Positions 3,300 to 53,740 of a stretch of 64,000 nucleotides of DNA are shown one piece after another. Position 1 is the first letter of the stretch. Each line of letters begins with the position of its first letter. The position numbers and the translations under genes were made by a program. Origin of the DNA: Quercus robur (lineage: Eukaryota > Streptophyta > Magnoliopsida > Fagales > Fagaceae); assembly GCF_932294415.1 (NCBI RefSeq), contig NC_065542.1, forward strand, positions 2,125,501 to 2,189,500, given 5' to 3'. The notes beneath the pieces are model-generated. The model was given only the letters and a program-made list of their open reading frames with translations, had not been told where the DNA came from and made no database searches.

Positions 3300-3900
3300 G
3301 TGGTCAATTATATAGGTTTTTTTTAACCGACCTCGAATAAATAGGAAGGCCAACTTACACTTACTAGTTCCACTAGTAGGATTAGTAATCTAGATAAATA
3401 TTACGGAAATTCTTGATAAAAAAACAAAGACAAGTGGTTCATTATATAATTTTTTTTAACCGACATTGAATATAGTTTGTTAATTCTATGAGAAATTTAT
3501 TATCTATGACAATTCTGTACGTAAAAAAACTAACTTTTGCCTACAAAAAATAATCTAATTTTTAAATTTCGTAGAATAGATAAAATTGCCAACTACTAAT
3601 ATAATATATTATGAATCTAAAAGAAAACTAGTATATTTATTTATTTATTTTTATAATTCGAGAGATAGGGATCAAAATATACCTAACGAGCTACGTGTAA
3701 ATCAAAATTCTATCACCATGCGGTAAAAGAAAACTTTTTTTTAATAAACCGACATTGTATATAGCTTTTCCAACTACAAATACAAATACAAGTAGAAATA
3801 GGAATAGGATTATTATTCTTAAAAAATAAATATTTATGATAATTATTGACAAAAAATACAAAGACAGGCCATGGTACATTATAAAGCTTTTCTTTAACCG
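3300..3900. repeat. Diverged repeats with a poly-T/AACCGACAT motif
   Basis: A T-run followed by AACCGAC occurs near 3314, 3447 and 3884 (a fourth copy near 3738 has AATAAACCGACAT), with related flanks (TTTCGTAGAATAGAT, ATTGCCAACTAC, tatattatgaatctaaaa). A further copy of the 3440-3670 part is at 7970-8270. The remainder of 2961-3920 shows no gene. The family is not recognised; it looks like local duplication of promoter-type DNA rather than a transposon with clear ends. Confidence 0.55.
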
Positions 3901-3920
3901 ACATTATACATAGGAATTAG

Positions 3921-3930
3921 TATAAATATT
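3921..3930 (+). promoter_or_regulatory. Probable TATA box of the bZIP gene
   Basis: TATAAATATT at 3921-3930 is followed about 25-35 bases later by a pyrimidine-rich stretch suitable for a transcription start. This would give a leader of roughly 300 bases, long enough to hold the upstream ORFs at 4003 and 4106. The assignment rests on motif and spacing only. Confidence 0.5.
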
Positions 3931-4002
3931 CTTTGTCCTCAACCTTCAAACCTACCATCATATTTTTCTTTTGCTCCAGTTATTCTCTCTCTTTGCATTC
4001 AT

Positions 4003-4020
4003 ATGTTATTTGGGTTTTAG
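4003..4020 (+). other. Short upstream ORF 1 (5 codons) in the bZIP leader
   Basis: ATG TTA TTT GGG TTT TAG lies 86 bases before the larger upstream ORF. S1 bZIP leaders commonly contain more than one uORF, so this may be part of the same translational control, but a five-codon ORF also arises easily by chance. Confidence 0.35.
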
Positions 4021-4105
4021 TGTTCTTCCTTAAGCGAAGTCTTCATATTTCCATTGTTCTAAGTGATATCTCGCTAGAACCACCTCAGTTCTCTCGAGTT
4101 GTTTA

Positions 4106-4189
4106 ATGAACTACAGTCATATTCATACCCTTCTCTTATTGCATTCTATATCCGTCTTTTTATTATATTTTTACTACATCTACTCTTGA
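4106..4189 (+). promoter_or_regulatory. Conserved sucrose-control peptide uORF
   Basis: A 27-codon ORF ends 67 bases before the bZIP ATG. Its C-terminal half reads HSISVFLLYFYYIYS then stop. From memory, the sucrose-control peptide of Arabidopsis group S1 bZIP leaders ends SFSVVFLYWFYVFS, so the two match in spacing, aromatic pattern and the terminal YxYS/YxFS plus stop. In that family the nascent peptide stalls the ribosome at the stop codon when sucrose is high and represses translation of the main ORF. An in-frame TGA at 4064 precedes the ATG with no other in-frame ATG between, so the start is fixed. The match is to a peptide, in the correct place, ahead of the correct gene family; conservation of function is inferred. 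Confidence 0.85.
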
Positions 4190-4256
4190 ATTTTCTTTTA
4201 CTACTTTTATTAACACCTTTTTGAGTTCATCTTCTTTCAAATTTGGGAGAAAAAAC

Positions 4257-4616
4257 ATGTCGTCGGGGCCTAATGTTGATCGATTCATGGATGAGAAAAA
4301 GGAGAGGAAAGCGCTAGCAAATAGAGAAGCGGCAAAGCGTTCACGTATAAAGAAACAAAAGGAGTTGGAGGGCATAGTCACTGAAAAGAGCGTGGTATTA
4401 GAGGATATAAAGAACAAAAGAATTGAAATTGAAAACTATGACAATGACTATTCTATGACGGAGAATGAAAATAACTCTTTGGATGCTGGAACTTTGATTG
4501 TGAATAAGTTTCTGAATTGCATGAGCTTGTACAAGAAAAAACTTGGGATTCCAGACCAGACGCTCGAGACTCCGGCACCTACGTTCAATCCTTGGCAGTC
4601 CCAGTTTAGACACTAA
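4257..4616 (+). CDS. Group S1-type bZIP transcription factor, divergent zipper
   Basis: Intronless, 119 residues. The ATG at 4257 is the first in this frame; the upstream in-frame extension begins only with TTG. The basic region at residues 17-36 has the canonical N-x7-R (N22, R30: NREAAKRSR) and continues IKKQKELE. The heptad positions that should hold leucine are I40, V47, K54, Y61, T68 and L75, so three of six are polar or aromatic and the zipper looks weak. The C-terminus has the NPWQ motif (residues 111-114) typical of group S1 proteins such as bZIP53 and bZIP11. Length is below the usual 145-170. The leader carries the S1 sucrose-control uORF. The frame is intact, so this is probably expressed, but its dimerisation may differ from that of its relatives. 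A decaying duplicate cannot be excluded. Confidence 0.85.
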   Translation: MSSGPNVDRFMDEKKERKALANREAAKRSRIKKQKELEGIVTEKSVVLEDIKNKRIEIENYDNDYSMTENENNSLDAGTLIVNKFLNCMSLYKKKLGIPDQTLETPAPTFNPWQSQFRH

Positions 4617-6466: not shown

Positions 6467-6745
6467 CTCCGGCTATTTGGTCCTATATATTCGGTCTATG
6501 TCGGTCCCATTCAATCTACTTTAGTTCTATTCGGTCCTATTTTGTCTACTTTAGTCCTATTTGGTCTACTTTAGTCATATTCAATCCACTTTGGTCATAT
6601 TCATTCTGTTCATTTTGGTCCATTTAGTCCACCTTAGTCCTATTCAGTCTATTAGGCTCTATTCAGTCCATAATGGTCTTCTTTGGTCCATTCTGTCCAC
6701 TCTAGTCCTATTTGATCCACTATGGTCTATTCAATTTGGTTCATA
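6467..6745 (+). repeat. Degenerate minisatellite of GGTCC/AGTCC units
   Basis: About 280 bases consist of imperfect short units of roughly 10-11 bases, alternating forms like TTTAGTCCTA and TTCGGTCCAC, with GGTC or AGTC recurring throughout. Copies are mutated, so the array is old. It keeps a small frame open, but the product would be low-complexity and is not called as a gene. Confidence 0.7.
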
Positions 6746-7862: not shown

Positions 7863-7968
7863 TCTACACCGAAAACTGATTGATCTTTTAGTTTGATGAT
7901 AAAGAGCTATCATCAGGAGTAGACATCATAAATTAAAACATTCTCAAAAACAAAATAAATACATAGTT
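7863..7968 (+). mobile_element. 5'-truncated tRNA-related SINE
   Basis: The stretch from TCTACACCGAAAACTGATTG through GTTTGATGATAAAGAGC to the A-rich end matches the 3' part of the SINE at 33323-33503. It is flanked by ATATATAGTTTA (7851-7862) and a similar ATACATAGTTTA ending at 7980, a likely target duplication. Confidence 0.55.
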
Positions 7969-7969
7969 T

Positions 7970-8269
7970 ACCTTATATTTTTTTAACTGACATTGTATAA
8001 TATTATATGAAATTTTTGACAATTTAGTATGTAAAAATATAATTTTTTTTCCCAACAAAAAAATAAAAATCTAATTGTTGAATTTCGTAGAATAGATAGG
8101 ATTGCCAACTACGAATTATGAATTATAATACAAAGTATAATTATGAATCATCTATTAAAAAAAAAGAATATATTATGAATCTAAAAAAAAAAAAATACTA
8201 GCACATTTTATTTATTTATAATTTGATAGATTGGATTGCCAACTACTACTATTAGTAGGATTATTAATA
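7970..8269. repeat. Second copy of the repeat found upstream of the bZIP gene
   Basis: Resembles 3440-3670: an ACTGACATTGTATAATAT segment, then TTTCGTAGAATAGATAGGAT, TTGCCAACTAC and tatattatgaatctaaaa, with A-run length differences. The LTR element at 8275 inserted at its right end. No gene in it. Confidence 0.6.
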
Positions 8270-8274
8270 TTTAT

Positions 8275-8952
8275 TGTGGAAGGACTCAATTTGTAACGAC
8301 CCAAAATGATATTGGGTTCGCACGTAAAAAGGCCCAAACAATATCACTTGTAGAGCGTGGGTTTGAAAGGCTAGGCCTTGGTCACCGGACAGTGGTTAGT
8401 CGTGGTGTTCATACAGAATTAAACCGTGTTCGCTTGATGAGTCTTTCTCCTTGAGGCGGTCTGGGAGGCTCTAGTTCTTGGCCTTTTTTCCTAGCCCCTT
8501 CTCCGGATTGCTTGCTTCTCCTTTTATATTAGCCTATATCCCTTCTCCTACGTCCACGTGTAGGATCGACTTTCTAGGACTGATACTTATCTCATCAGCC
8601 CATACCCAAAGTGTTTGGGGGTGGTTGTAAAAATTGAAGAGCATGGCTCTGTCAGGTGCAGAGTATTCAATGGCAGTAATGACAGCTTTCCCTTTGTCCT
8701 TGGTCGTTATACTATCCAGCGTTCCCTTCTCTATTGACATAGATATTTTAGATTTTTTCCAAAACTGTTCCTATACCGTTTTTGCCCTTTCTTTCAGGGG
8801 GACCTCGGATATGCCAAGGACAGAATTATCCTCGACTATGTCTCAAGACTACTTGGACTTTTATTACACGTTCTTGGCTATACCCCTCATCGGCTCGGGC
8901 CTTGGGCCCCAATGTAAAAATGGGCCAGGACCACAAATTCTTGGGCCCCACA
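8275..8952 (-). repeat. LTR (3' LTR in element orientation)
   Basis: Left-hand LTR of the 8275-12099 element, paired with 11424-12099. It borders the purine-rich tract at about 8953-8970 (minus strand). Short open frames inside both LTRs are not genes. Confidence 0.85.
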
Positions 8953-10077
8953 ATAGCCCCTCAAAATCCTGCTGTCCGACCTCTTAGTCGGAGAGGAGGG
9001 TTTTGGCGATGCCCATCCTTTATTACAGTTCGTTCGGCTCTAACCTTCATTAGTGTTGGTGTCCCTTCATCTATTTAGTAAATGCGCTGGGTTACGAGAC
9101 ATTCGTCTAGATTTTCACACTGGGCGTTCCCGCCGTTTCAGTGTACGAGGTGCATCTTTAATAGATTTACACTACGAGGCCGATCAAATCTGACGGTTAT
9201 AGATGACATTGAGGAGTTGAACAGACACTACCTCATTTGCAGATCTTCTTGGAAATCTGTACGGATTAAATGCCACTGAATTTACCTTCCATATAAGAAG
9301 CTAAATGAGAGGGTATTCCCTTCGTGTAAAGACTCTTTAACCTTCCTAAAGCCTCAAACCTCAAGCTGTGCTCAAAGTCTTCCTTATCAGCATAGCCAAA
9401 GCTTATAGTGTGACATGTTTGAAGTAAAAGCGGGGATGAAAAGATCACATCCTTCTCAGAAGCGTTATGTCCCTCCGAAACTTAAGATGGCTCGGTTGGG
9501 GTAGGGTTGGCAGAGACTCAAGATGCTTCCCATCCTCCTTCAGCCAAAATCCGAAGCAGGTGCTTGTCGCATCAAGCATTTGGTGCGATTGAGCTAGGGT
9601 TATCCATTATCAGTACCAGCCGCTCTCTTATGAGCATAGCTAATATGGCACCAGCGTGTTAGGAGTCAGGGCTGACGCAGGGACTAAGTATCCCTACTTC
9701 TTCCTCTGTTCCTTCACTAATGCCCCCTTTTGCCTCCCCTTCTTCTTCTTTCCCATCACCAAATCCATCCTGGTGCTTTTCCTTCTTCCTCTTCTTCTCC
9801 TCATCCATCAAAAGAGGTCATCCTCTCAATATGGTAGCTACTAGAGCAGAATTTAGCAAGACTTCTTATTTTTGTTGCTTTTTTTTTTTTTATTCTAGTT
9901 CTTGTAATTTGTTTCCTATATAGGCTTGTTTAAACCCTTCATTGTACGCTGTACTACTTCTTTACATTAATAAAAGTTGTCATTGTTTTATTCTATGTAT
10001 TCTTTCTTTCTTGCAATGGTTATGCCGTGAATGGACGTACTACTGTATGACTTCTTTTCATTTTTATACTCTGAACG

Positions 10078-10557: not shown

Positions 10558-11154
10558 TAAGTAGCTAATTTTTCCATAGGTTTGAGTCGGAGGACCATGC
10601 AATACATTGGTTCTGTCCAAAACTTAGCTTTTAAGTAGTTGGTTTCCCCATAGGTTTGAGTCGGAGGACCATGCAATACCTTGGTTCTGTCTAAAACTTA
10701 GCTTTTTAAGTAGTTGGTTTCCCCATAGTTTTGAGTCCGAGGACCATGCAATACCTTGGTTCTGTCAAAAACTTAGCTTTTTAAGTAGTTGGTTTCCCCA
10801 TAGTTTTGAGTCCAAGGACCATGCAATACCTTGGTTCTGTCCAAAACTTAGCTTTTAAGTAGTTGGTTTCCCCATAGGTTTGAGTCCGAGGACCATGCAA
10901 TACCTTGGTTCTGTCCAAAACTTAGCTTTTTAAGTAGTTGGTTTCCCCATAGGTTTGAGTCCAAGGACCATGCAATACCTTGATTCTGTCAAAAATTTAG
11001 CTTTTTAAGTAGTTGATTTCCCTATAGGTTTGAGTCTGAGGACCATGCAATACCTTGGTTCTGTCCAAAACTTAGCTTTTTAAGTAGTTGGTTTCCCCAT
11101 AGGTTTGAGTCCGAGGACCATGCAATACCTTGGTTCTGTCCAAAACTTGATTTT
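10558..11154. repeat. Eight ~75-bp tandem units inside the LTR element
   Basis: Units begin at 10558, 10632, 10707, 10782, 10856, 10931, 11006 and 11081; a ninth starts and fades at 11155. Each reads TAAGTAGTTGGTTTCCCCAT, then GGTTTGAGTCCGAGGACC, ATGCAATACCTTGGTTCTGT and AAAACTTAGC. Units differ from each other at a few sites. The array lies near the primer-binding end of the element. Confidence 0.9.
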
Positions 11155-11423
11155 TAAGTAGTTGGGGGAATTAACCCCTCGGCTATGGCGTGGGACATTG
11201 GTTTAGGGGGACTAGCTCCTCGGCCAAGCCTTTAGAACCATCCGCACTACTGACGCTTCGAAGCGTAACCCCTAGTGAAGAAACGTAGCCCCTAGTGGAG
11301 AAACGTAGCCCTTAGTGGAATTTTATGCTAGAACACTACAACCAGCTGTTGGAAATGACGGGGGGACTGTCTCAACCCACCGCCTGTGCCAACACACAAG
11401 CCTTTCCCACAGACGGCGCCAAT

Positions 11424-12099
11424 TGTAAGGACTCAATTTGTAACGACCCAAAATGATATTGGGTTCGCATGTAAAAAGACCCAAACAATATCACTGGTAG
11501 AGCGTGGGTTTGAAATGCTAGGCCTTGGTCACCGGACGGTGGTTAGTCGTGGTGTTCATATAGAATTAAACTGTGTTCGCTTGAGGAGTCTTTCTCCTTA
11601 AAGCGGTCTGGGAGGCTCTGGTTCTTGGCCTTTTTTCCCAGCCCCTTCTCCGGATTGCTTGCTTCTCCTTTAATATTAGCCTATATCCCTTATCCTACGT
11701 CCACGTGTAGGATTGACTTTTCAGGACTGATACTTGTCCTATCAGCCCATACCCAAAGTGGTTGGGGGTGGTTGTAAAAATTGAAGAGCATGGATCTGTC
11801 AGGTGCAGAGTATTCAATGGCAGTAATGACAGCTTTTCCTTTGTCCTTGGTCGTTATACTATCCAGTGTCCCCTTCTCTATTGACATAGATATTTTAGAT
11901 TTTTTCCAAAACTGTTCCTATACCGTTTTTGCCCTTTCTTTCAGGGGGACCTCAGATATGCCGATGACAGAATTATCCTCAACTATGTTTCAAGACTACT
12001 TGGACTTTTATTACACGTCCTCGGCTATACCTCTCCTCGGCTCGGGCCTTGGACCCCAATGTAAAAATGAGCCAGGACCACAAATTCTTGGGCCCCACA
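11424..12099 (-). repeat. LTR (5' LTR in element orientation)
   Basis: Right-hand LTR of the 8275-12099 element. On the minus strand it ends CTTACA and is followed after two bases by the primer-binding site TGGCGCCGTCTG at about 11409-11421. Confidence 0.85.
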
Positions 12100-12104
12100 T
12101 TTAT

Positions 12105-12471
12105 AAATTTAAAAAAAATTAAAAAAAAAAACTGAGTAGGATTATTAGTATTTTTTTTTTTTTTTTGAGAAGAAGGATTATAGTGCTATGGGCCGAGCAT
12201 GAAAGACAAGGCCTCTATTTTGGGCTTACGGCCCATTAATCAATGACAAAAACAAAGATGGGCCGTTTCTATTGAATATTTAAATTATTTTATATCAGAA
12301 ATTAGATATATATGTTATAAAAAAAAAAAAAAAAAAAAAATTTAAAGAACCAAATGAATTAAATAAAGAGAACTGATAGCTGAAAAGCACTTTGATCGAT
12401 CGCTAGGAAAAGCAAATTCCTTCGGATTTCGAAATTCCAATTCCAATTCCAATTCCTTAGTTCTCAGGAAA
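12105..12471. other. Upstream region and leader of the methylesterase gene
   Basis: AT-rich, with A/T runs near 12150 and 12320 and two GGGCC/GGCCC motifs near 12190-12250 of the site II/TCP type often found before plant housekeeping genes. The leader directly before the ATG repeats CCAATTCCAATTCC. No separate gene. Confidence 0.5.
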
Positions 12472-21135: not shown

Positions 21136-22500
21136 GCGGGTTTATATTACTCCGACTCGAGCCACTTTGTCGTAATTGTTCTACGTGATCGACTGTGATT
21201 AATAATCTAATACAATTGTATAGACTAGTTTTTTTTTTTTAAAAAAATTGTTTATTGTAGATTTTGTAGGATAATTATGACAAAATGTGCACTTACTAAT
21301 ATTATTAGTCAAAATATCTATGCGTTTAGTGGTATTATTGGTCAAAATTTCCTTTCAATTTTGTTATGCATGACTTTTCTGAACGTGCCATTCCTGTTTT
21401 TTTGTTATTTTTTATAGTCTCGAGTCAATGAATGGTTTCTTTGTTTGGGTTCTAGCTTTTTTTAGTGATTGATATACCAAAAAATGGCTTCACCTGTTCG
21501 GAGCTTTGCTAAACTCATGGCACTCATGGCAATTAAATGTTCATTGAAAAAAAAAGAATAATAAATTGTTTTATATGATTGAATGAAAAATTTGGTGTGT
21601 TTTGAGCATTATAACAAAAGGGTGTTTTAAGAATTTTAAGTTCTTTTAACATAATTTTTCAACAGATTCGTAATTTTTCTAAATTCCTTGAGGAGGTTTT
21701 TAAAAAGGGAAAAATAACTTCAAAGTTATAGTTAAAGTTTGGAATTTTTAGGAGTTTAAAAAATAAAAATAAATAAACGTATTTTAATGTCCATATATTT
21801 TAAAACTACCATAAAAAACGTTAAGAGTTTTTTTCAATTAAAATTTTGCCTTTTACATTCAAGCCTTTTTTTGTTGTTTTTTTTTTTATACAATAATGCT
21901 GAACAAGCACATGGTCATTTCTATTATAAAACAAACACAATCAATAAAATGCAAATATTTATGTTATCATATTAAGAAAGAAAATATTTTATTAAAAATT
22001 TTATAATATAAACCGTTAAATTATTGGTTGTCCCAAAAATTTAAATTATTAAAGTATGATAAATTTAATTATTTAATCACACAATTCTAACACAAATGAC
22101 AAATAAAGACGAGTTCAAATCTCTCCTCCTATAGTATAACTATCAAAAAAAAAAAAAAATTCAGAGTATAACTATCAAAATTATTTATAAAAACTTGCGT
22201 TGAACCTCCACCAAACCATAATCCATAATTAGAAATTTTCCAAATGGCACCATGGCTTCACTTTGCCCACACCATTTGATTGTGAAGAAGCCCATGATAT
22301 GTACTACAATTCCTACCCCATTTGTCCATACAGCCCATATAGAAAGCTCCACCAGCCCAACCCAAAAAAAAAAAAAAATGTCAAAAAACTTTTCTCTCTC
22401 AGCAAAATCAGCTTGAACTCTCGCCGCTCAGCTAGCCTTTGTTCTGTGTGTGAGCTCAGTCAGTAATGTGTGCTCTGACTCTGAAACCATAGAATCCACC
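21136..22500. other. Intergenic between divergent cytochrome c and PPR genes
   Basis: AT-rich, with many A/T runs and no coding signal. A TATAAAAA at about 22187 could serve the PPR gene, with a leader of about 280 bases. Confidence 0.5.
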
Positions 22501-24120
22501 ATGGAAATCCCAAGCCTTTACAAGAAGCTCAGGTACTTCTCAAACTCTTGCTCTGTTTACTCTCTCTTCTCTCACTCCCCACACCCATTTCTCTCTCCCA
22601 AAACCCTCGTCTCACCCAGTTCCTCTCCAGAAATTTTCTTCCTTTCCAATCATTTTCATTTTCACACAAAACCCACTTTCAGTTCTCTGTATACACTCAT
22701 TTCCTCATCTGGGTCATCCTTATTTTCCGCCATAACCTGCCCAATTCCTCAATCTTCACAAAATTTACATTTCTATAGCTGTAACAATAATGAGTATAGA
22801 CATCAATTTTGGAATCTAGGTTTGGTTAAACCTTGTGTTAATAGATGCATTCGTTGGTTTTCAGTGTCTTCTAAGGATGTGTCATCGGGTTCAGCTGGGT
22901 TGAGTGAGATGAATTCTATTAAAAATGTTAAATTTCGAAAAATGGGTGTTGATGGGATTAGGCCAAAACCTACTCGAAAGCAAGTTTCGGAAATTATTGG
23001 CTTGGTTATGAGGGATGAAAATGATTTGGAGTCTAAGTTGGATTCTATGAATGTAATCTTATCTATTGATTCAATTACTGAGGTTTTTCGGGTTTTAAAT
23101 TTTGAAAGAGTGTCCGCATTGCGTTTCTTTAATTGGATTAGAGGTTCGCGGCCGGATCTTTACTGCAATTCTGATATTTGTAGTTTGGTTATTGATAATT
23201 GTGGTTGGTTAGATGACCACAAGGCCATGCTTTGTATTCTGAATGAGTTAAGGAAAAGAAAAATTTGTCTGAACAAGAAGGCATTTGGGTTCTTACCTGT
23301 TTTGGTTTCAAACAAGGAATCCATTATGCACTCTGTAAGAAGAGTGGTAGAGGTGTTGAAGGAAGTTGGGGGGTCATGCCGGAACTCTGGGATTTACTCA
23401 TTGATTGAGATGTTTGTCTCTTTGGGTTCCTTTGAAATGGCAGAATTTGTGATGGAAATAACAGAGAGGAAGGCAGTTTATTACAATGTTTTGGTTAGGG
23501 AGAAGTGTCGAAGATGCGATTTTGAAGGAGCTAGAGAAGTGCTTGATGAGATGAGGCTAAGGGGTTGTTGTGATCGAATTGTCATTGGTTATAATTATTT
23601 ACTTAGTAGTTTATGCAAGAATGATAAAACTGTTGAAGCTAGTCAGGTACTGGAAGAAATACATGGAAGGGATTGGCTTCCTGATGCATTAACCTTTGAG
23701 ATATTTATTTGTTACTCGTTTAGACTTGGAAAGCCCGATCTTGCTTCCCAGTTTCTTGACAGGATGGTGTCAAATGGCGTTGAACCTCGTCATAGCACAC
23801 ATGCTGCTTTTATCAAGGGTTATTTCAGTTTACTGAAATATGAGGAAGCATATAAGTACGTGGTTGATTCAAGTGTTAAGCTTAGGTTCTCAAGCAATCT
23901 AAATTACAGCTTGCTTGCAAGCCTTCATCAGAAGAAAGGAAATGTGGTCATTGCACGAAATATTCTTTTGGAAATGATTAAAAAGGGTCTCAGACCAAAC
24001 TTTGCAGTGTATATGAGGGTTTTGCGTCATCTAAATAATGCAGGCAGGGAAGACTTGGCCAGAGACTTAAAGAGCAGCTTCTCTAGTTTGAGTTTACAGC
24101 CAAGTTTAGAAACTGGATGA
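22501..24120 (+). CDS. P-class pentatricopeptide repeat (PPR) protein
   Basis: Organellar RNA-binding protein by family, acting in splicing, processing or stability of particular transcripts. Intronless, 539 residues. The start at 22501 sits in a perfect ACCATGG context; the open frame extends 51 bases further upstream only from GTG, so that part is not counted. Residues 1 to about 100 are rich in Ser, Phe and His and poor in acids, as in a mitochondrial or plastid targeting peptide. Residues about 180-290 look like weak repeats or an N-terminal helical region (ALRFFNWIRGSRPDL). From about 297 to the end there are roughly seven helical-pair repeats, for example YYNVLVREKCRRCDFEGARE, GYNYLLSSLCKNDKTVEASQ and LTFEIFICYSFRLGKPDLAS. 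No E, DYW or SMR domain follows. The ortholog and RNA target are not identified. Confidence 0.9.
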   Translation: MEIPSLYKKLRYFSNSCSVYSLFSHSPHPFLSPKTLVSPSSSPEIFFLSNHFHFHTKPTFSSLYTLISSSGSSLFSAITCPIPQSSQNLHFYSCNNNEYRHQFWNLGLVKPCVNRCIRWFSVSSKDVSSGSAGLSEMNSIKNVKFRKMGVDGIRPKPTRKQVSEIIGLVMRDENDLESKLDSMNVILSIDSITEVFRVLNFERVSALRFFNWIRGSRPDLYCNSDICSLVIDNCGWLDDHKAMLCILNELRKRKICLNKKAFGFLPVLVSNKESIMHSVRRVVEVLKEVGGSCRNSGIYSLIEMFVSLGSFEMAEFVMEITERKAVYYNVLVREKCRRCDFEGAREVLDEMRLRGCCDRIVIGYNYLLSSLCKNDKTVEASQVLEEIHGRDWLPDALTFEIFICYSFRLGKPDLASQFLDRMVSNGVEPRHSTHAAFIKGYFSLLKYEEAYKYVVDSSVKLRFSSNLNYSLLASLHQKKGNVVIARNILLEMIKKGLRPNFAVYMRVLRHLNNAGREDLARDLKSSFSSLSLQPSLETG

Positions 24121-37117: not shown

Positions 37118-39381
37118 CTAGAGTCCAACTTTAGTTGCATCTCTTGTTCCCTCTTCCACGTGTGCTGCAGACATAGCACATCGCCTATGCTCTTCCTTTA
37201 TAGCCCTCATTTTGGCCACCACATCTTCGTAGTTGGGAAGCTTTGGATGGACATGACTCAAGCGAGCTGGGCTGTCCTTTAGCTCTTCATGATTAGAAGT
37301 ATGAAATGAATGGTGATGATTTTTGACCACGCTAGGAGTCTTCTTTCTCTCACTATCCCAAGAGAAAGGGCATGATTGAATGTCACTTTTGTTAGCTAAA
37401 GGAGTAGTAGTGCTTGGATGAAATGTGTGTTCTTCAGCTATTTCACTCATCAATGTGACAATTTGATCAATAGGTACCACATATTTGCATAGATTCTGCC
37501 TCATTTGGAATGACACAAAATGTCCATGTCCTAATTGGACATTGGCAGTCTCAAATTTACGACCATAGCGCCCTGTGAAATAATGACTGAACAAACGCAG
37601 CTCTGGCAATTCACCAAGCCTGGACGCAGCAAATATCAAATTTGCCAAAGCTTGGCGAACATCAATGGGCAAGGATCGTATGTCACTGCAAATATCAACT
37701 AGGACTTAGAGTAACATTTTACTATTGTTTATGAAACTATGAATACTCAACTAACTAATCAATGTCGTTCACATGTAATCAAACCTTTTGAAATTTAATA
37801 AAGTTTGAGTCCAAGATATGTACCTCTGTTGGCAAATATGGGAGAAATTGGTGAGGACGCATTCACAGCAATTATTTATTTCATCATATGCTGCCAATAT
37901 TTTTTGATCCTTGAAGACTTTCTTGACCTAAATATAATTTTAAAAGGTCAAAAAAGGCATTCATGAGCCCGACCCTCCTAAGAAAATAGTCTTGACCTAC
38001 GTACAAATATTTTAGAGTATACTTAAATGGTAATTTTGTCCCTGATTAGCTTTTGAAATTCATAATTATTAATAAACTATAAATTGAAGAAATTTTAGAG
38101 GTGTGCATGGGTCGAGTTGAAGGATTTTTTCAACCCAATCTAATTAACCTTGTAGGGTTGAAAATTTTCCAACTCATTATATGAGTAGAAACCAAACCAT
38201 CCCAACCCACATTGGTCAGGTTGAGTAGGGGGATTATATTTATATGTTTAATGACTTATAAAAATTTGGATTTTCATAAAATAGTTAAGCTTTAAAAAAA
38301 AAAATTAACATGTCTAAATTATATTCTAAAATTTTAAATAAACAATTCTCAAAATATCAAAATAAGTCATACTAAAAATTATAATAAGAACAATAATATA
38401 AACAAATATACATATTGTGGAACGAATGGGTTAGAAAAACTAATAGCCTAAACCCTGACCCAACCTGATGTTCAAAATAAAATCACAACCCAACCCAACC
38501 CATGAAAACCAACAAAGGTGTCAAGTTACTTTGGATTGGATTAGATCAGTCTCATAATTTTGGTAGGTTGAATGAACATCTCTTATAGATCTTGAGTTTG
38601 TGCAAGGACCATAATTTTAATAAAGAAATTAATTTTGAAAAGAATTTCAACCATATAATTCCAATAACAAAAACTTGGTGATTAATGTCACTGTACGTAA
38701 ATGAGAAGAAATCATACCCTAGATAAGGCATTTTCTTGCTGGCCAAGCTGTAGGAGCTGAGCAATATCAGCACGAGACTGTCGTATAATTGAATTCATCC
38801 TTTTCTTCAAAATAGCAAGACGAAGTTGAGCCTCCTCTATCGCACGCTTGCTACAACAAAAGCATAATTAGTGTGTTATTTTTAAGACAAGTAAGAGAAG
38901 GAAATGAATGGACAAAAAGATTATAAAAAAAATAAAAATGTAATGCTATATAAAAAAAAGGCACAAATAGTAGGCCAAAAAATATTGATGGGGCTTATAA
39001 AATTAAAATTTGGGAAACCTTTGTGAACTCATTAAGGCTCTACTTTCTATATTGGATCCTCAATACAATGGGTACGAGGGTTACTACAACTAGTCTCTTC
39101 CCTACCCTTTTCATAGAAGTAGAAAGAATATATAAGAGTAGCATATTCCATTCATGTTTAAGATTGAATTTTTTTTTTTTTTAATGGATAAAAGGTTATA
39201 AAATATTAAAATGCATGTTTAAGATTTTGAATCATAGTAGTGAAGTTTTATGAATGAAAAAACAAGTAGGAAGATTAAGTAGAATTATTTACCACTTAGA
39301 GGCTTTTCTCCACCTTGACACTTCTGTCAATAGGAATAGAAGGGCTGCATAATACACTCGGAGAAGCATTGATTTCCCCAT
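37118..39381 (-). CDS. IST1-like protein (regulator of Vps4/SKD1, ESCRT-III pathway)
   Basis: Member of the IST1/DUF292 family, which binds ESCRT-III subunits and the Vps4-type ATPase in multivesicular-body sorting on endosomes. Exons on the minus strand are 39381-39293, 38850-38718, 37927-37824 and 37685-37118, all GT-AG and in phase, giving 297 residues. The fold is a helical bundle: ACKRAIEEAQLRLAILKKR-like start of exon 2, RADIAQLLQLGQQENALSR, then YDEINNCCECVLTNFSHICQ, and SLPIDVRQALANLIFAASRL with ELRLFSHYFTGRYGRKF. The C-terminal third is low-complexity with His/Ser stretches and ends after PNYEDVVAKMRAIKEEHRR, a conserved helix in plant members. The starting helix MGKSMLLRVYYAALLFLLTE is short and more hydrophobic than usual (typical starts are longer and basic), so a different start is possible. 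Intron 2 holds a hAT-like relic. Confidence 0.88.
38096..38520. mobile_element. Decayed hAT-like element in intron 2 of the IST1-like gene
   Basis: The left end TAGAGGTGTGCATGGGTCG and the right-end CCAACCCAACCCATG, followed after some bases by AAAGGTGT, are the inverted GGGTTGGGTTG-type ends widespread in plant hAT elements. CAACCC and GGGTTG motifs recur inside. Ends are approximate and no target duplication is clear. Confidence 0.5.
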
Positions 39382-52437: not shown

Positions 52438-52956
52438 TTACGAGTCCCAAATGGACTCATATTGCAATTCTTCCCAGTCACTGAACTCAACATTGTTGTC
52501 ATACAATACCATATTCTCCTCAAACAAAAGAGCTCCTGTCAACTCCATCCACATCTTTGGTGAGTCCAAAGGTGACTCATTAATGGCTTGAATTTGGCTA
52601 GGTGAAAGTCCCACCCTGACCGGCATCACATTAGCTCCAGAGCTTCCCATCTCAGGCCTTCTAAACCGCAATGCCGCCTCTTGAGCCGCCATTTGCACGT
52701 CCTCAGCTCTCGAGCTCTTTGGCCTCGGCAAGCTATCAACCAATTCAGGAAAATTCAGGCGTGCCCCACGTCCTCTAAGGTGCAATGCCGCCACATCATA
52801 GGCCGCGGCGGCCATTTCTGGCGCCTCATAGCTCCCCAACCATATCCTTGTTTTCTTCCCTGGCTCACGAATTTCAGACACCCATTTTCCCCATTTGCGC
52901 CTTCTCACACCCCTATATGTTGGTGCAACAACGTTAGGATTGGTTGGTTCTTCCAT
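52438..52956 (-). CDS. AP2/ERF transcription factor, DREB type (ERF021-like)
   Basis: Intronless, 172 residues. A single AP2 domain starts at Y14 ([20 protein letters not shown], then [20 protein letters not shown] and [18 protein letters not shown]) and ends near residue 71. WVSEIREP, with Val and Glu where ERF-type proteins have Ala and Asp, places it in the DREB subfamily, and the AP2 sequence closely resembles what I recall of Arabidopsis ERF021-ERF025. Downstream is a Gln/Ala helix ([16 protein letters not shown]) and an acidic C-terminus ending [16 protein letters not shown], a likely activation segment. By family it binds DRE/CRT-type sites in the nucleus and responds to stress or development. 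The first ATG is used; the length fits. An AT-rich TATA-like stretch (TATATTTATATC, minus strand) lies near 53063-53075. Confidence 0.92.
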
Positions 52957-53740
52957 GTGTATGTGTTTGAGCTTTTGTGAGAGAACACTATTGTTGAGTG
53001 TTTTTCAATGAGCTAGCTAGAGAGATACTGATTTTGGTAGAGAAGAGTGTGAAGCAATCATGATATAAATATAGGAGATGGATGTGAAGTATTATTAGTG
53101 TGAATGAAATTTAAGAAACTCTTTTTTTTTTTTTTTTGGAGATTGAAAGGGAGTTTCCGAGTAGCTACGTAAGTGGGAAGATGCTGTCAATGGGCGCATG
53201 CGCACGTTTCCTTTGGTTTTGCATTATCGAGTCATACCATGCCACATGTCTATTCTTATTTTGTATTTATTTGGTTTTGTTTAATTTTTTTAAGCACATA
53301 TAGGAAGTTTAGAAGGAAAAAAGGAAAAACTAAGTTTTCTCACAATTGATAACTTTATTTAGAGAAATATATTATTATATCTACACTTTGAATATATTCT
53401 TTCTTTCACCTTCCTTATTATATATATGGGTCTTACATCCATTCTCTCACATGATGAATCTCACATATAATATAAAAAGAATGTGAAATAAACTAATATT
53501 GGTGTGAAAAATTCATAGTTTTTAGAGTATTCAATTCATGCTAAAGTGTTTTTTTTTTAATAAAAAGCATATTAAAGTGTATTATATACAAACTATTTTA
53601 ATTAATAAATGGTAATGCTTTCTTAATGCTAGAACCTCATATTGTCTACGAGAATTGATCCCAAATTACCTTAAAACAAACCAAAGAGTAATCAACAAAC
53701 TAAAAATATATAAACTTATACAAATTATACATATTGATTC
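52957..53740. other. Upstream region of the ERF gene
   Basis: Leader and promoter for about 120 bases, then AT-rich spacer with a T-run at about 53122. No gene. Confidence 0.5.

Follow-up and report, generated by a model that had tools for sequence, protein, structure and literature searches.

A 27-codon upstream open reading frame (uORF) that lies directly ahead of a bZIP gene, and whose peptide differs from its Arabidopsis counterpart at most positions, raises the question of whether it still belongs to the sucrose-control (SC) uORFs and, if so, whether it could still convey sucrose to translation. The SC-uORFs form a known family, designated CPuORF homology group 1 (PMC2075485), so that the uORF at 4106-4189 would be a new, divergent member of it; among the S1 bZIP genes of Populus tomentosa, 5 of 10 are reported to carry one (PMC11120861). 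We analyzed the uORF within its window, a 64,000-nucleotide stretch of Quercus robur DNA. Our overall reading, to which we assign a probability of roughly 0.7, is that of a divergent SC-uORF homologue which probably still arrests ribosomes at its stop codon under high sucrose, on a fast-evolving S1 bZIP copy.

A two-uORF leader ahead of a bZIP frame

The position given in the initial annotation, 4106..4189 on the forward strand with 27 codons plus TGA, was confirmed; the frame encodes MNYSHIHTLLLLHSISVFLLYFYYIYS-stop, a peptide rich in Ser, Leu, and Tyr in which Arg is absent from all 27 residues. Its C-terminal 14 codons (4145..4186, +), encoding SISVFLLYFYYIYS, hold the four-residue pattern and the identities described below and would constitute the arrest segment. 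Two ATGs occur within 3880-4256. The first opens a short upstream uORF1 of five codons, MLFGF-stop (4003..4020, +), while the second, at 4106, starts the SC-uORF homologue in a weak context (T at −3, A at +4). Between the uORF stop codon and the ATG of a 119-aa bZIP ORF at 4257-4616 lie 67 nt (4190..4256, +), bearing out the earlier placement of the uORF ahead of an S1-type bZIP. We infer that one mRNA carries both the uORF and the bZIP, and that the uORF is translated.

Upstream of its ATG, the uORF frame (4061..4105, +) reads AAG, a TGA at 4064, and then YLARTTSVLSSCL. No in-frame ATG lies between this TGA and 4106, leaving the uORF with a single one. The segment may once have extended an ancestral uORF2 at its N-terminus, a weak suggestion based on a provisional sequence of the Arabidopsis peptide. 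A TATA-like TATAAAT at 3921..3927 (+), the sole match to TATA[AT]A[AT] in 3501-4257, would put the transcription start 5′ of 4106, judging by the consensus match only. As an aside, the uORF was also considered as a fusion partner or alternative N-terminus of the bZIP, a candidate rejected because the two frames differ; the frame of the main ORF is open 5′ to 4110, with no ATG before 4257.

The region 5′ of the bZIP leader also contains four degenerate direct repeats with the core TTTTTTTTAACCGACATTG (3317-3345, 3450-3478, 3739-3767, and 3888-3916), the last of which ends 4 nt before the TATA-like box. Each contains ACCGAC, the drought/cold DRE core, and together they account for 4 of the 12 RCCGAC sites in the window, a whole-window count barely above chance (shuffle mean 7.4; 12 reached in 5 of 100 shuffles). 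Since AACTGAC takes the place of ACCGAC in a related stretch at 7925-8015, the TTTTTTTTAACCGACATTG repeats may represent a dispersed repeat rather than promoter design.

Four residues of the SC peptide are conserved in exact spacing

Ser29, Ser31, Leu35, and Tyr39 of Arabidopsis bZIP11 are thought to be essential for sucrose-induced repression of translation (SIRT), according to PMC4960570. In the window uORF, Ser14, Ser16, Leu20, and Tyr24 correspond to these residues with identical spacing, so the match in spacing first claimed for this C-terminus is exact. Three residues lie between Tyr24 and the stop codon, and the position of the stop relative to the four residues matches that in a provisional 42-codon bZIP11 uORF2 reference; this stop anchor (Tyr plus three residues) derives from the provisional uORF length, only the residue spacing being taken from the paper. 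In angiosperm SC-uORFs, the stop position has been called invariable (PMC4960570).

How often would such a pattern arise? Taking, in six frames over the whole window, each stop codon with 14 open codons before it, we obtained 3071 tails, exactly one of which fits S.S...L...Y...-stop, namely, that of the uORF at 4106-4189; three of the four residues were present in six others. Residue frequencies predict 0.12 such tails per window. The same mean (0.12) was returned by 1742 dinucleotide shuffles, which on average contained 0.017 ATG-started ORFs of 20 to 60 aa with the pattern, 29 of the 1742 shuffled windows having at least one. Given the peptide's own composition, the probability of finding all four residues in place is ∼0.001 by hand calculation, 4*3*6*5/(26*25*24*23).

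The likeness extends beyond composition

As the reference for a residue-by-residue alignment, we used a provisional sequence of the Arabidopsis bZIP11 uORF2 peptide, which comprises 42 residues, with S, S, L, and Y at positions 29, 31, 35, and 39 and with 28 residues counted from the second methionine. This provisional reference agrees with the numbering in PMC4960570 and with the published SC peptide, counted as 28 residues in PMC8795868, a count expected if translation begins at the second in-frame AUG of the provisional 42-residue uORF2. The window uORF had initially been described as short; its 27 codons stand, but next to the 28 residues of the published peptide it is not unusually short, and what is absent is the longer N-terminal form.

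Aligned without gaps from the stop codon, the uORF and the provisional reference peptide are identical at 9 of 27 positions, 7 of them within the last 14, and differ at 18 of 27; the Trp of the reference is a Phe in the window uORF. The stop-anchored offset was the best among the offsets tried, and among all window tails of 14, 18, and 27 residues (3071, 2361, and 1317 tails, respectively) the uORF ranks first against the reference peptide. The nine identities include all four residues (hypergeometric P of 0.007; 0.035 within the last 14). When the peptide was shuffled with its composition preserved, the BLOSUM62 score was reached in 361 of 100000 cases for the last 14 residues, 93 of 100000 for the last 18, and 17 of 100000 for all 27. 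The likeness thereby held beyond mere hydrophobicity in the pattern scan, the dinucleotide shuffles, and the composition-preserving alignment shuffles alike.

For the last 14 residues alone, the composition-preserving p is just 0.0036, a modest figure by which composition accounts for part, though not all, of the likeness. It is this figure, along with an S/L/Y-rich peptide in an AT-rich window (GC 33%), that gives some credit to the alternative of a chance ORF, that is, an AT-rich leader giving a Tyr/Leu/Phe-rich peptide with a fortuitous match. We nonetheless consider this very improbable, given that the four-residue spacing is exact and unique in the window, that the shuffles lead one to expect so few such ORFs, and that the uORF sits just ahead of an S1-like bZIP. 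In our judgment, 4106-4189 is very probably homologous to the sucrose-control uORF (CPuORF homology group 1; bZIP11 uORF2), though divergent.

The downstream gene resembles bZIP53 but is much diverged

A single open frame of 119 codons makes up the main ORF (4257..4616, +), whose product is an S1-type bZIP as indicated by Pfam and by comparison with provisional reference proteins. In Pfam, it scored 22.9 bits for bZIP_2 (cut-off 22.3) and 26.5 bits for bZIP_1, just under the cut-off of 27.6, and its basic region shows the N-x7-R arrangement with N22 and R30. A PDB search with the bZIP returned 4 matches up to an E value of 1, the best at 0.39; two of them were CREB. Poplar S1 genes are described as single-exon (PMC11120861), and the coding sequence at 4257-4616 is likewise intronless, as read from the DNA alone.

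The comparison set consisted of four provisional reference sequences, three of them S1 and one, HY5, non-S1. The best match was AtbZIP53, with 29% identity over 114 columns (z 15.7) extending through NPWQ near the C-terminus, followed by AtbZIP1 (z 14.4) and AtbZIP11 (z 11.7), and the control HY5 scored lowest (z 5.0). Beyond the basic region, shuffles reached the score in 2 of 1000 cases for bZIP53, 10 of 1000 for HY5, 357 of 1000 for bZIP11, and 741 of 1000 for bZIP1. Since bZIP53 and HY5 but neither bZIP11 nor bZIP1 exceed chance here, it is mainly the basic region and the NPWQ tail that support the S1 assignment. At its heptad positions, the zipper has I V K Y T L V where the AtbZIP53 reference shows L L I A M L L; the zipper appears degraded, making a regular leucine zipper doubtful. 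By resemblance, we would describe the main ORF as a bZIP53-like S1 protein that is much diverged. The bZIP and its leader seem to have diverged in concert.

Divergence on both sides could also mean that the uORF, while homologous by descent, is a relic on a decaying S1 duplicate, where any translation of it would repress weakly and without sensing sucrose. Such a history would account for the heavy divergence from both provisional references (9 of 27 identities for the uORF, 29% for the bZIP), for the lack of Arg and of a second ATG in the uORF, and for a zipper whose heptads include Lys, Tyr, and Thr, which may signal a decaying gene. It is harder to square with two frames that are both open and with the retention of all four residues. 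In a neutral simulation, substitution-only and started from the window sequence itself rather than from the true ancestor, the 119-codon ORF remained open in 25%, 13.7%, 6.3%, and 2.8% of 600 runs at 80, 70, 60, and 50% identity, respectively, and the uORF frame with its four residues was kept in 4.3%, 1.3%, 0.25%, and 0.025% of 4000 runs at 60, 50, 40, and 33% identity. The simulation speaks for past selection on both the uORF and the bZIP; a recent loss of function would look alike. We regard the relic as rather unlikely.

A putative sucrose-dependent arrest at the uORF stop codon

Among the four uORFs of the Arabidopsis leader, it is the second that inhibits strongly and through which sucrose acts (PMC3020687), with high sucrose causing stalling at termination (PMC11883436, citing Yamashita 2017). 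Many CPuORFs with C-terminal conservation show degradome ends at −16 and −46 (PMC9305500). When the bZIP11 uORF cluster was simplified, reinitiation could follow it across spacers of at least 50 nt (PMC3020687). The anatomy of the window leader fits this bZIP11 scheme: another uORF comes first, the SC-uORF homologue starts in a weak context and has its conserved C-terminus at the stop codon, and the spacer, at 67 nt, exceeds 50 nt. For a divergent SC-uORF that still functions, we envisage that scanning ribosomes would pass or leave the five-codon uORF1 and that some of them would start at the weak-context ATG at 4106. By the time the stop codon is reached, the nascent C-terminus SISVFLLYFYYIYS would occupy the exit tunnel. 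Under high sucrose, termination at the TGA would be slow, a ribosome queue would form, and little bZIP would be translated; under low sucrose, termination would be followed by leaky scanning or by reinitiation across the spacer, permitting translation of the bZIP.

We infer the arrest as well as its sucrose dependence, and lean somewhat, at odds slightly better than even, toward the sucrose response having survived in this uORF. The absence of Arg might weaken the effect of the uORF. One variant of the proposal would have the arrest machinery kept, as the four residues and the stop position suggest, yet without the Arg cluster and the Trp the arrest would be constitutive or responsive to a signal other than sucrose. 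To this we attach only a small probability. If true, the sensor would have been re-tuned and would control a neofunctionalised S1 bZIP that no longer pairs through its zipper in the usual C/S1 way.

Searches for relatives and other features of the window

Neither Pfam nor PDB returned a match to the uORF peptide, and a tblastn search of the window with both peptides for a second SC-uORF or S1 bZIP gave only weak non-self matches (best E value, 0.015 with the bZIP and 1.1 with the uORF peptide as query). In viral contigs, the SC-peptide DNA pattern picked up three stretches, none of them an SC-uORF by translation, and none of 55 pattern stretches was confirmed as a bZIP relative; a longer SC-peptide DNA pattern yielded no match in genome contigs. 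Rfam at gathering scores found nothing in the window. In the literature, letter strings of the SC peptide gave no match, and the locus did not appear among the matches listed for Fagaceae bZIPs and uORFs or for natural SC-uORF variation, as judged by titles and the start of abstracts. In the accessible text of a paper on chestnut bZIPs (PMC10106562), the term "uORF" is absent.

Elsewhere, the window holds several repeats and ordinary plant genes. A tandem array at 10574-11165 has a 75-base unit in 7.9 copies with 94% matches, and short tandem repeats of the TCTATTCGGTCCCATTCAATCTACTTTAGT type occupy 6495-6581. Two open frames in the same orientation, 8631-8987 and 11778-12122, have translations that are nearly identical over most of their length (KLKSMALSGAEYSM... 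and KLKSMDLSGAEYSM...) and may represent either a local duplication or a repeat element. An open frame at 1319-2137 (−) has F-box and LRR (AtMIF1-type) matches. Further genes encode a PPR protein (22417-24117, +), an Ist1-domain frame (37121-37705, −), and an AP2-domain protein (52441-53004, −).

Comparison with known SC-uORFs

The closest point of reference is bZIP11 uORF2, with which the window uORF shares the location ahead of an S1 bZIP, an earlier uORF, the four residues with their spacing, a hydrophobic aromatic C-terminus and, judged against the provisional reference, a stop codon three residues past the Tyr. Different from bZIP11 uORF2, the window uORF has one in-frame ATG, no Arg, and Phe in place of the Trp of that reference. 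Two of the uAUGs of bZIP11 presumably open uORF2 in frame. In total, five uAUGs are described there for four uORFs, one of them named uAUG2a (PMC3020687). Both in bZIP11 and in tobacco tbz17, the SC-uORF is the second uORF (PMC3020687 for bZIP11); as in the window, another uORF precedes it.

On the side of the regulated protein, the provisional AtbZIP53 reference and the window protein have in common the N-x7-R basic region and NPWQ near the C-terminus. The window protein is ∼29% identical to it and shorter at both ends, and its heptads differ.

Strawberry FvebZIPs1.1 likewise carries an S1 SC-uORF with a conserved C-terminus, but this has two ATGs and a conserved Arg pair (PMC7470447), in contrast with the one ATG and lack of Arg seen here. 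In a strawberry reporter, alleles in which one or two Arg codons were changed together with the internal ATG raised the signal by 28.7% and 32.8% over wild type, compared to 22.0% for the ATG alone (PMC7470447). While described as conserved, the Arg pair appears to add a small effect when changed, and we do not treat it as defining an SC-uORF.

The S1 uORFs of Picea abies and Pinus taeda are, like the window uORF, divergent SC-uORFs. Although Leu35 and Tyr39 are retained without either serine and the stop codon is placed differently, these uORFs still mediate sucrose repression in Arabidopsis cells (PMC4960570). That gymnosperm uORFs with only the Leu and the Tyr mediate SIRT documents a tolerance of divergence, and it bears on which parts of the SC peptide sucrose sensing needs: four residues are thought essential in Arabidopsis, yet gymnosperm peptides with just two of them function (PMC4960570). 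The window peptide, in contrast, keeps all four. It had been proposed as an informative natural variant, and this assessment stands: a peptide that retains exactly these four residues, with 18 of its other 23 positions differing from the provisional Arabidopsis reference, constitutes a ready-made test of their sufficiency.
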